Shown here piece after piece: positions 52,388 to 55,025 of a stretch of DNA of 64,000 nucleotides (position 1 is its first letter; each line of letters starts with the position of its first letter). Below the pieces are notes generated by a model. It was not told the DNA's origin. It did no database searches and was given only the letters and a program-made list of their open reading frames with translations. The DNA lies in the NCBI RefSeq assembly GCF_039536245.1, contig NZ_BAAAYN010000044.1, positions 1-64,000 on the forward strand, given 5' to 3'. Both the position numbers and the translations under genes were made by a program. This DNA is from Cryptosporangium minutisporangium (GTDB lineage: Bacteria; Actinomycetota; Actinomycetes; Mycobacteriales; Cryptosporangiaceae).

Positions 52388-52506
52388 GCCGAATGACTTT
52401 AGCGGCCGCGCCGGTGGCCGAGTTGGACGGTGAAGCGACCGAGAACGGTGTGCTCCGTGGGTTTCGCGATTCGCAGATGATCTTTGTCGATCAATGTCGA
52501 TTGGGC

Positions 52507-52539
52507 TTGATCCACATATCCACAGGAAGCCTGTGGATA
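52507..52539. repeat. Inverted DnaA-type box pair, copy 1
   Basis: TATCCACAGG at 52517-52526 and CCTGTGGATA at 52530-52539 form a perfect 10-bp inverted repeat with spacer AAG. The left 18 bases (52507-52524) recur exactly at 53708-53725. Confidence 0.7.
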
Positions 52540-52635: not shown

Positions 52636-52659
52636 GATCTATGTTGATCAACATAGATC
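52636..52659. promoter_or_regulatory. Perfect 24-bp palindrome, candidate operator
   Basis: The whole 24-base segment equals its own reverse complement, with core ATGTTGATCAACAT in the middle. It lies 58 bases upstream of the FAD oxidoreductase start, in promoter position. Confidence 0.65.
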
Positions 52660-52717: not shown

Positions 52718-53665
52718 ATGGCGGCTGACGTGCAGATCATCGGAGCCGGGATCGCGGGTCTCGCGTGTGCGAGAGCGCTCGTCGGCGCCGGTCACCGAGT
52801 AGTGGTCCGGGAACTATCCGAATCCGTTGGTGGGCGGATGGCGACCCGTCGGCTGGACGGTCGGCCGGTGGACCTCGGCGCGTCGTACTTCACCTGCCGC
52901 GACGAGGCTTTCCGCACCGTCGTCGACGACTGGGTACGGCGCGGGCTCGCCCACCCCTGGACCAGCGCGTTCGCCGTCCACACGCCGCACGGAACCACCC
53001 CCGGCGAGGACGGACCCGTGCGCTACGGCAGCCGCGGCGGCCTCCGCACGCTCGTCGAGGACCTCGCGAGCGGGCTGATGGTGTCGCTCGGCGATCCGGT
53101 GACCAGCGTCGAGCCCGGTCCACGCGTCAATGGCTGGCCCGCCGACGCGGTCGTGCTCGCGGTACCCGACCCGGAGGCGCACCGGCTGCTCGACCCGGCC
53201 TGCACGGAAGAGCGGGATCTCACCGCGGATACCCCCTGGTCACCGGTGATCGCGGTCGCTGCGGGCTGGTCGAGCAGGCGCTGGGACGTGGACGGGGTCT
53301 TCGTGCACGACGATCAGGTCGTGGAGTGGATCGCGGACGACGGCCGGCGACGAGGGGACTCCGCACCGGTGCTGGTCGCCCACTCCACGGCCGAGTTCGC
53401 AGCGGCGCACCTCGACGACCCGCACCAGGCCGCCGTCGCCGTGATCGACACCGTGCGCAGCGTCCTCGACATCCCCGAGCCGCCGAGCTGGATCTACGTC
53501 GAGCCGTGGGCGCGGGCACGCCCGGTCGAGCCACGCGCGACGCCGTACCACTACGGCGAGGCACGGATCGGCTTGTGCGGAGACGCGTGGGGATCTCCCC
53601 GCATCGAGACCGCCTGGCTGTCCGGCCACCGACTCGGCACCGAAATCGCCCGCACGCTCGCCTGA
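52718..53665 (+). CDS. FAD-dependent oxidoreductase (renalase/amine oxidase-like)
   Basis: A 315-residue flavoprotein. The N-terminal dinucleotide motif is VQIIGAGIAGLACARAL, followed by VVVRELSESVGGRMATRRLDG, which is the typical Glu/Gly-Gly-Arg of amine oxidase folds. LGASYFTCRDEAF and the C-terminal IGLCGDAWGSPRIETAWLSG complete the FAD site. It probably oxidises an amine or a related hydride donor; renalase-like enzymes oxidise misfolded dihydro-NAD(P) isomers. ATG at 52718. Upstream lies the palindrome cluster; the HTH-citrate synthase gene follows with about 150 bases between. Confidence 0.82.
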   Translation: MAADVQIIGAGIAGLACARALVGAGHRVVVRELSESVGGRMATRRLDGRPVDLGASYFTCRDEAFRTVVDDWVRRGLAHPWTSAFAVHTPHGTTPGEDGPVRYGSRGGLRTLVEDLASGLMVSLGDPVTSVEPGPRVNGWPADAVVLAVPDPEAHRLLDPACTEERDLTADTPWSPVIAVAAGWSSRRWDVDGVFVHDDQVVEWIADDGRRRGDSAPVLVAHSTAEFAAAHLDDPHQAAVAVIDTVRSVLDIPEPPSWIYVEPWARARPVEPRATPYHYGEARIGLCGDAWGSPRIETAWLSGHRLGTEIARTLA

Positions 53666-53707
53666 TTCCGCCCTGCCGACCTGCCCGACAACTCGGGTCG
53701 ATCGATG

Positions 53708-53740
53708 TTGATCCACATATCCACAAGACACCTGTGGATA
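53708..53740. repeat. Inverted DnaA-type box pair, copy 2
   Basis: TATCCACAAG at 53718-53727 and CCTGTGGATA at 53731-53740, imperfect by one base relative to copy 1. ATGTTGATCCACAT at 53705-53718 overlaps it and differs from the 24-bp palindrome's core by one base. Confidence 0.7.
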
Positions 53741-53769
53741 CCGCCAGCCCGCTGGCCCGGCGCATCGAT

Positions 53770-53783
53770 ACATTGATCAATGT
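53770..53783. promoter_or_regulatory. Perfect 14-bp palindrome, candidate operator
   Basis: ACATTGATCAATGT equals its reverse complement and sits 30 bases before the start of the HTH-citrate synthase gene. It shares the TTGATCAA core with the palindrome at 52636. Confidence 0.65.
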
Positions 53784-53813
53784 GGGCAGGCCGGGCGAGC
53801 GGGGAGGTGAAGG

Positions 53814-55025
53814 ATGACCGACGAGGTCTCCTTGCTGTCCACCGCGGAAGCCGCCCGCCGGCTCGGCGTCAAACCGGCAACGCTCTACGCGTACGTGAGC
53901 CGCGGCCTGCTGTCCCGGGTTCGAGGCGCCGACGGCCGCACGAGCTTCTTCGATCCGGCCGAGCTCGACTCGATGGCGCAGCAGCCGAGGACCCCGGTTG
54001 CGGCCGCAGGCAACGGGGTCGTGGTCCGCACCGCGGTGAGCGAGATCCGTGACCAGCGGCTCTGGTATCGCGGACGGGACGCCTGCGAGATGGCGCGCAC
54101 CGAGTCGTTCGAGGCCGTCGCCGGCTGGCTGTGGTCGGCCGGTCGGCCGATGCCGCCGTTCGCCGGGCCCGCTGAGTTCGTCGAGGCCGGCCGTGCGGCC
54201 GCCGATGCGCTTCCGGACGGCGCCCGGCTCCTGGACCGCATCCGGGCGATCGTCGCAGCGGTCGGCGCGGTCGACCCGTTGCGCGCCGACCTCCGGCCCG
54301 AGGCCGTGATGGTCACGGCCGCCACGCTGATCGGTGCGCTGGTGGACGGTCTACCGCGCAGGCGGGAGAGGGACGCGGACGCCGAATCCGTGGCGCAGCG
54401 GCTGTGGGGCGTCCTGACCTCGCTCCCCGCCGAGCCGACCACCGTGGCATCCCTGAACACCGCACTCGGTCTGCTCGCCGACCACGCGGTGACCGCGTCG
54501 ACGCTCGCGGCTCGGGTCGCCGCGTCGGCCCGCGCGCACCCGTACGCGGCGATCGGAGCCGCGCTCTACAGCCTGGACGGCCCGGTGGAGAGCGGAACGA
54601 CCGCGCTGGTGCACCGGACACTGGTCGAGGCCGAACGGGACGGCAGCGTCGCGGTGGTCGCGCGCCTGCTCGACCAGGCGAACCAGCTGCCGGGATTCGG
54701 CCACCCGCTCTACCCGGACGGCGACCCCCGCGGCCGGACGCTCATCGACGTGCTCGCCGCCGAACCGCCGCACCGCGGCCGGTGGGAAGCCGTGGAGCAG
54801 TTCCTCGCGACCGGTCAGCGCGGTCGGCCGCTGGCTCCGACGATCGACTTCGGAGTGGCGGCGCTGACGTTCACCGCCGGGATGCCCGCCGACGCCGGGC
54901 TGGCCATCCTCGCGGTCGCGCGGTGTGCGGGATGGGTCGCGCACACGCTCGAGGAGTACGCGGAGGAGCCGGACCGGTTCCGGCCGTCCGCCGAGACGCA
55001 GCGGCGGTCCCGTCTGCGGCCCTGA
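53814..55025 (+). CDS. HTH-citrate synthase fusion lacking a catalytic histidine
   Basis: A 403-residue protein. Residues about 5-55 form an excisionase/MerR-type HTH (STAEAARRLGVKPATLYAYVSRGLLSR). The rest is a citrate synthase-like domain with LADHAVTASTLAARV (His224), GFGHPLYPDGDPR (His297), and TIDFGVAAL (Asp345). The segment that should read GPLHGGA reads GPVESGT, so the catalytic His (position 259) is Glu. It probably does not make citrate efficiently and may bind acyl-CoA or oxaloacetate to control DNA binding. ATG at 53814 after GGGAGGTGAAGG. It is preceded by palindromes that could be its own operators. Confidence 0.88.
   Translation: MTDEVSLLSTAEAARRLGVKPATLYAYVSRGLLSRVRGADGRTSFFDPAELDSMAQQPRTPVAAAGNGVVVRTAVSEIRDQRLWYRGRDACEMARTESFEAVAGWLWSAGRPMPPFAGPAEFVEAGRAAADALPDGARLLDRIRAIVAAVGAVDPLRADLRPEAVMVTAATLIGALVDGLPRRRERDADAESVAQRLWGVLTSLPAEPTTVASLNTALGLLADHAVTASTLAARVAASARAHPYAAIGAALYSLDGPVESGTTALVHRTLVEAERDGSVAVVARLLDQANQLPGFGHPLYPDGDPRGRTLIDVLAAEPPHRGRWEAVEQFLATGQRGRPLAPTIDFGVAALTFTAGMPADAGLAILAVARCAGWVAHTLEEYAEEPDRFRPSAETQRRSRLRP

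Follow-up and report, generated by a model that had tools for sequence, protein, structure and literature searches.

Can a citrate synthase fold that has lost its catalytic histidine serve as the sensing half of a DNA-binding regulator? The question is raised by a gene in the 64,000-nucleotide stretch of the Cryptosporangium minutisporangium genome that we analyzed, which we call the window. The gene lies at 53814-55025 on the + strand, starts with ATG and encodes a 403-residue fusion of an HTH domain with citrate synthase (HTH-CS, where CS stands for citrate synthase). A first-pass annotation made from the sequence alone described the fusion and the missing histidine, and suggested a metabolite-sensing regulator. 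Based on comparisons across many HTH-CS genes, we think that HTH-CS is probably a one-component regulator that controls its own gene, with a citrate synthase fold that would now be a catalytically dead sensor.

Domain composition and predicted structure

Pfam detected an HTH_17/MerR-like, putatively DNA-binding domain at residues 7-57 (53832-53984, + strand) and a citrate synthase domain at residues 69-391 (54018-54986, + strand), so the joining of the two in one open reading frame, as first annotated, stands. HTH_17 scored 32.2 bits (cut-off 27) and MerR_1 26.6 bits (cut-off 21.6), with MerR slightly below its cut-off at 27.6 versus 28.2 bits, and Citrate_synt (PF00285) scored 162.6 bits against a cut-off of 27. 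HTH_17 was detected in all 65 members of one of our HTH-CS alignments (A2). An AlphaFold2 model of the window protein, with an input alignment of 65 family members, had a mean pLDDT of 93.1, and its top PDB matches in Foldseek were the citrate/methylcitrate synthases 1a59 (E 6.5e-15) and 3hwk.

Four further CS-family genes of the same genome pass the Pfam cut-off, two with strong scores (467 and 303 bits), and all four are on other contigs. We also noted two loci in this genome where a CS-like sequence adjoins a CoA-transferase-like gene. At L004 (1438-3446, contig C6) the domain is CS/citryl-CoA-lyase-like, and the pairing is reminiscent of plasmid HTH-CS genes, some of which have an annotated CoA transferase next to them. 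At L005 (1396-2187, + strand, contig C29) a 263-residue citrate-synthase-like ORF seemingly lacks the GPxHG histidine, reading LLGGGSRFLG, and keeps GLGH; it is possibly a lyase-type relative.

The catalytic histidine is absent in one taxonomic family

In a HMMER alignment, the GPVESG segment of the window protein (residues 256-261; 54579-54596, + strand) pairs with the GPLHGG of the solved citrate synthase 1a59, which puts Glu259 (codon 54588-54590) in the position of the catalytic His. Across an alignment of 146 HTH-CS proteins, this column is His in 138 of the 144 that are readable there, and it is His in all 122 other citrate synthases aligned, a set that has 114 neighbors of HTH-CS genes and does not include L005. 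The exceptions are the HTH-CS proteins of four genomes of the window's genus, which have Glu, a protein from the sister genus, and one truncated gene with Arg. Within this alignment, His is thus absent only from the window's taxonomic family (five genomes in our set) and from the truncated gene. One of the four genus members reads GSIESG. In the sister-genus protein, a Gln is aligned at the His column in an eroded stretch, and H224 and D345 are lost too. The five family proteins cluster together among the His-bearing HTH-CS (SH-aLRT 97) in a quick tree with some long branches.

Since all four genus genomes agree on the substitution, a sequencing slip or frame error behind GPVESG can be ruled out. 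The nearest downstream histidine, His267, is not a shifted replacement, because it aligns with a His in several relatives that retain the catalytic one as well (L038, L067 and L070). Alignment with citrate synthases and with other HTH fusions placed no alternative His in the active site, and the replacement of GPLHGG by GPVESG that was first read from the sequence is confirmed by the match to 1a59 and by the genus and family alignments. The same is true of the two residues described as retained, His297 (54702-54704, + strand, within FGH) and Asp345 (54846-54848, + strand, within TID), which the alignment shows to be kept in the window protein.

One part of the annotation needs correction, which is that it called the missing residue the proton-abstracting His. 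In citrate synthase the proton-abstracting base is an Asp (D375 of the pig enzyme), and the His of GPLHGG (pig H274) stabilizes the enol. We take D345 of the window protein to be the equivalent of pig D375, so the catalytic base position is kept. Since it is the enol-stabilizing His that is gone, lost activity would still be expected from this chemistry.

At the catalytic Asp position we also observed a difference between groups of proteins. HTH-CS proteins keep Asp there in 142 of 143 readable cases, and the partner and other citrate synthases have Glu (NVEFY or NVEFW) in 115 of 119, for example at L011, L039 and L002.

Pocket residues and selection

The window protein keeps H224, H297, R306, R370 and R390, which we take to be the oxaloacetate-contact positions of known enzymes, as well as D345, and it has lost H259 and G260. 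We compared pocket positions without L012, L065 and L066, which are incomplete at the site. Among the 138 His-bearing HTH-CS, 52 positions are at least 95% conserved; 15 of these are altered in at least one family protein, and for six (H259, G260 and four others) this is true of every one of the four genus proteins. The oxaloacetate-contact positions are kept across the genus except for R390, which is His in one member. Because of this change and the loss of H224 and D345 in the sister genus, ligand binding may be eroding in the window's family.

The HTH-CS gene is under purifying selection, with dN/dS values of 0.148-0.213 among the four genus members (0.185-0.351 for the FAD gene that precedes it, described below). 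A pseudogene is ruled out by the full-length ORF together with dN/dS of 0.15-0.21. Residues 8-50 of the HTH are better conserved than the citrate synthase domain in 11 of the 11 relatives compared. Taken together, the family-limited loss of His, the dN/dS values and the conservation of the HTH argue for a protein that is maintained but, in a single lineage, no longer has one of its catalytic elements.

Damaged HTH-CS genes were seen in other bacteria (L012, L065 and L194; in-frame stop, truncation and frameshift), so some lineages may be able to do without the gene.

The six changed positions, the R390H change and the sister-genus losses all favor an alternative in which HTH-CS is a DNA-binding autoregulator, with a citrate synthase domain that is merely a dimerization scaffold, a decaying pocket and no metabolite sensed. 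However, the window protein still has H224, H297, R306, D345, R370 and R390, and its gene is under purifying selection. We regard the scaffold alternative as possible but unlikely, and we prefer a citrate synthase domain that still senses.

It is more doubtful that the protein still works as an enzyme, either through altered chemistry or as a poor citrate synthase, with an HTH that serves only for autoregulation. All 122 citrate synthases and partner proteins aligned have the His, which is needed for enol stabilization in known synthases, and the genome has its other CS-family genes, two of the four strong. On the side of an enzyme, the protein retains Asp345 and the oxaloacetate residues, His-bearing relatives keep the full triad, and passages of PMC9739823, PMC12323332 and PMC7324645 call SCO5831 of Streptomyces coelicolor a putative citrate synthase or citrate synthase-like protein. 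L005 seemingly does without the His as well, and the fold may thus support other reactions in its absence. Overall we consider loss of catalysis the better account of the window protein.

An operator-like element upstream of HTH-CS genes

Upstream of HTH-CS genes we observed two TCAAYRTTGA units, mostly at 15-bp spacing, with the consensus CTGTCAATATTGATTGAATCAATAT. The element scores at least 15/20 at 126 of 131 HTH-CS loci and at least 16 at 106, leaving five loci with no good site. These 131 are the 140 loci found minus nine re-fetched copies; some species are possibly present twice, and many of the loci are from related Streptomyces and are not independent. Since we counted the motif in the very loci that had yielded it, the controls matter. 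Dinucleotide shuffles reached 15/20 in 0.2% of 655 draws and never scored higher, nine further HTH-CS loci outside the 131 score 17-20, and 25 CS loci without an HTH have a maximum score of 14, or 0/25 at 15 or more (L036, a copy of L002, and L047, with 38 nt upstream only, were excluded). Across 76 named loci (1.0 Mb), 59 of the 64 sites scoring at least 17 fall within 200 nt upstream of HTH-CS, and five are elsewhere.

Loci from plasmid records, mostly of Pseudomonadota and Deinococcota, have a wider-spaced form with the same half-sites, which scores at least 16/18 at 15 of 18. The gap between half-sites there is 8 nt in ten loci, 7 in three and 4-5 in two that are actinobacterial. The other scores in this set are 11 for a CS gene without HTH, 15 for a frameshifted gene and just 12 for one HTH-CS locus, and shuffle maxima are 13-15. 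We also searched nine other HTH-CS genomes, and in eight of them all sites at two or fewer mismatches sit at the HTH-CS locus, while G063 has none. Two sites at three mismatches lie elsewhere in these genomes, and two of the nine have a single match to the control pattern.

The window has two genes with such sites in front of them, HTH-CS itself and, just upstream, a gene for a 315-residue FAD-dependent amine-oxidoreductase-like protein (52718-53665, + strand), which is a candidate second target. Before the FAD gene is a perfect 24-bp palindrome, GATCTATGTTGATCAACATAGATC, at 52636-52659, in which the operator-like positions 52638-52657 have no mismatches and are the best match in the genome. 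A second operator-like site before this gene, at 52481-52500, has two mismatches, and a composite repeat that contains TTGATCCACATATCCACA-N7-TGTGGATA is at 52496-52539. Before HTH-CS, a composite repeat at 53697-53740 has the operator-like ATGTTGATCCACAT joined to TATCCACA-N7-TGTGGATA (53702-53721 was scored, three mismatches), and a further operator-like site at 53767-53786, also with three mismatches, holds the perfect 14-bp palindrome ACATTGATCAATGT (53770-53783), which ends 30 nt 5' of the start codon. The two sites before HTH-CS are thus imperfect, at 15/20 by element score and three mismatches in the genome search.

The first-pass annotation had pointed to palindromes at 52636 and 53770, and both are real and belong to this wider element. 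They hold the only two occurrences of TTGATCAA in the window, where 0.12 are expected and two or more occurred in 1 of 100 shuffles. Chance palindromes are ruled out by the window shuffles, the shuffles of the 131 loci and the CS loci without HTH.

In the C. minutisporangium genome, the sole two sites at two or fewer mismatches are at the window locus, as are six of the 19 at three or fewer. The 13 off-locus matches all have three mismatches, versus two matches for a backward control pattern, so weak look-alikes are somewhat more common than the control. Among the matches listed, genus genomes G001 and G002 each have 0-mismatch matches at the locus and at least one off-locus site at two mismatches, and in G003 the two best (two mismatches) are at the locus. 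Given the off-locus sites in our genome and in G001 and G002, there may be distant targets, or a background of look-alikes, in genomes of the genus.

The units are spaced by 10 bp in the window versus 15 bp in most actinobacterial relatives, which is half a helical turn apart, and the 15-bp-spaced element has no match at three or fewer mismatches in the window's own genome. The sister genus links the two types, since its HTH-CS gene is preceded by two window-type copies as well as by a 15-bp-spaced element that is perfect. In the four genus genomes, the region before HTH-CS from the first operator-like site through the TATCCACA pair is nearly invariant, and synonymous divergence of the HTH-CS gene among genus members is 0.47-0.72. 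Operators of the MerR family sit in a long spacer between -35 and -10; around the window sites we found no match to a sigma-70-type promoter.

That the protein is a regulator, as the first-pass annotation proposed, does not follow from the missing His, given that such an element is also present upstream in relatives with the His in place. Because of this, regulation looks ancestral, with loss of catalysis a later step in one family. The regulator half of the proposal itself gains support from the family-wide element and from the two best own-genome matches at the locus. Its other half, binding without turnover, is plausible from the residues kept and lost in the pocket, which bear on it indirectly. 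The best-supported reading of these patterns is DNA binding throughout the HTH-CS family, by a protein that would be catalytically dead in the window lineage.

It is very unlikely that another regulator binds the element and the HTH-CS gene is just its target, as might be suggested by passages that report MtrA bound between SCO5831 and SCO5832 in S. coelicolor (PMC12323332) and GlnR at a CS promoter in Saccharopolyspora (PMC10704036), given that the element accompanies HTH-CS across phyla despite different divergent neighbors, is missing before 25 CS genes without HTH-CS and, in the window's genus, also precedes the unrelated FAD gene.

Gene neighborhood and DnaA-box-like pairs

The FAD gene directly precedes HTH-CS in all four genus genomes and is absent from the HTH-CS locus of the sister genus (G004). 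A divergent ordinary CS partner is present at 121 of 140 HTH-CS loci and a same-strand one at a single locus; 18 have none, including the five family members, and so there is no CS partner beside the window gene. In the plasmid records, the divergent genes are annotated as CoA transferase, citrate synthase, pyruvate carboxyltransferase, 2-hydroxyacid dehydrogenase, thiamine-pyrophosphate-binding protein and DUF2332. Divergent neighbors that vary between lineages fit a local regulator.

In the window, HTH-CS and the FAD gene lie between dciA and gyrB, inside the origin cluster dnaA-dnaN-gnd-recF-dciA-gyrB-gyrA (dciA, gnd and dnaN were named by Pfam, and dnaA, recF, gyrA and gyrB by eye from translations). 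The facing pairs TATCCACA-N7-TGTGGATA of the composite repeats, at 52517-52539 and 53718-53740, resemble DnaA boxes and are joined to operator half-sites. At three or fewer mismatches, such pairs occur only in these two places in the genome. Of single DnaA-box-like sites at one or no mismatch, the window locus has six, the dnaN-dnaA gap three and a region near 35 kb four. All four other genomes of the family have such composites too, before HTH-CS or before the FAD gene, and in some copies a single base of a box differs. In the sister genus, a region between a permease-like gene and HTH-CS (L174, 1640-2040) has a DnaA-box-like cluster, a perfect 15-bp-spaced element and two composites.

Given that operator half-sites are fused to DnaA-box-like pairs and that the genes are inside the origin cluster, the dead citrate synthase regulator might tie central metabolism to chromosome replication in the window's family, with ligand-dependent binding that competes or cooperates with DnaA. 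We give this extension little credence, and below we return to local control by HTH-CS.

Proposed mechanism

HTH-CS would be a regulator derived from citrate synthase. Two copies would dimerize via the citrate synthase fold and offer their two N-terminal HTH domains to the inverted RTTGAT half-sites. The bound protein would control its own gene and, in the window's genus, the upstream FAD oxidoreductase gene, presumably by repression as the default. The pocket, with its oxaloacetate-contact residues and without His259 and Gly260, may bind a ligand and carry out no condensation; candidates are oxaloacetate or a similar 2-oxo acid, an acyl-CoA, or both. As the citrate synthase fold goes from open to closed, it could then alter the geometry of the HTH domains, and hence their grip on the operator.

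The common operator-like element makes HTH-CS proteins look like transcription factors and supplies a DNA target for binding assays. The window lineage is a natural separation-of-function case, in which the catalytic residue is gone and the HTH domain and sites are kept, and it allows us to ask directly whether the citrate synthase fold can be a sensor of oxaloacetate or acyl-CoA.

Comparison with known systems

HTH-CS fusions recur among Actinomycetota: of 296 genomes sampled from this phylum, 29 have a match to the window protein at E <= 1e-30. They are also found in Pseudomonadota and Deinococcota, where those that are named are named as citrate synthases. The operator-like sites shared by HTH-CS genes of such distant bacteria suggest an overlooked family of metabolite-reading switches. 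From its arrangement, we take SCO5831 to correspond to the Streptomyces HTH-CS loci. SCO5831 (citA3) and SCO5832 (citA4), a divergent pair of S. coelicolor, are termed putative citrate synthases or citrate synthase-like in passages of PMC12323332, PMC9739823 and PMC7324645, and these passages do not mention an HTH or an own operator of SCO5831. The Streptomyces members compared keep the His, mostly with a divergent CS partner, whereas the window gene has Glu259 and an FAD neighbor.

The window protein has in common with Type II citrate/2-methylcitrate synthases (PF00285; 1a59, 3hwk and M. tuberculosis CitA) the fold and the oxaloacetate-contact residues, but differs in its N-terminal HTH and in the replacement of the catalytic His and the next Gly. 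With MerR/excisionase-type regulators (HTH_17, MerR_1) it has the HTH domain in common; MerR itself has a coiled coil with a small effector domain, where the window protein has a citrate synthase domain. PutA, NadR and BirA are enzyme-derived transcription regulators that combine an enzyme fold with a DNA-binding domain, but their folds are other than that of HTH-CS and they have kept catalysis. CitA of Caulobacter, according to passages of PMC7083601, exerts cell-cycle control independent of catalysis and so, like the proposed HTH-CS, is a citrate synthase protein that regulates by non-catalytic means; unlike HTH-CS it is an ordinary, active moonlighting synthase, and the wording "DNA binding" is absent from the main text of that paper. 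Among the matches listed in a full-text literature search (titles and abstract openings, mostly of non-subscription papers), none describes an HTH-citrate synthase regulator or such an operator. Enzyme-derived regulators are known in principle, and what is new is the operator-like element before HTH-CS genes.
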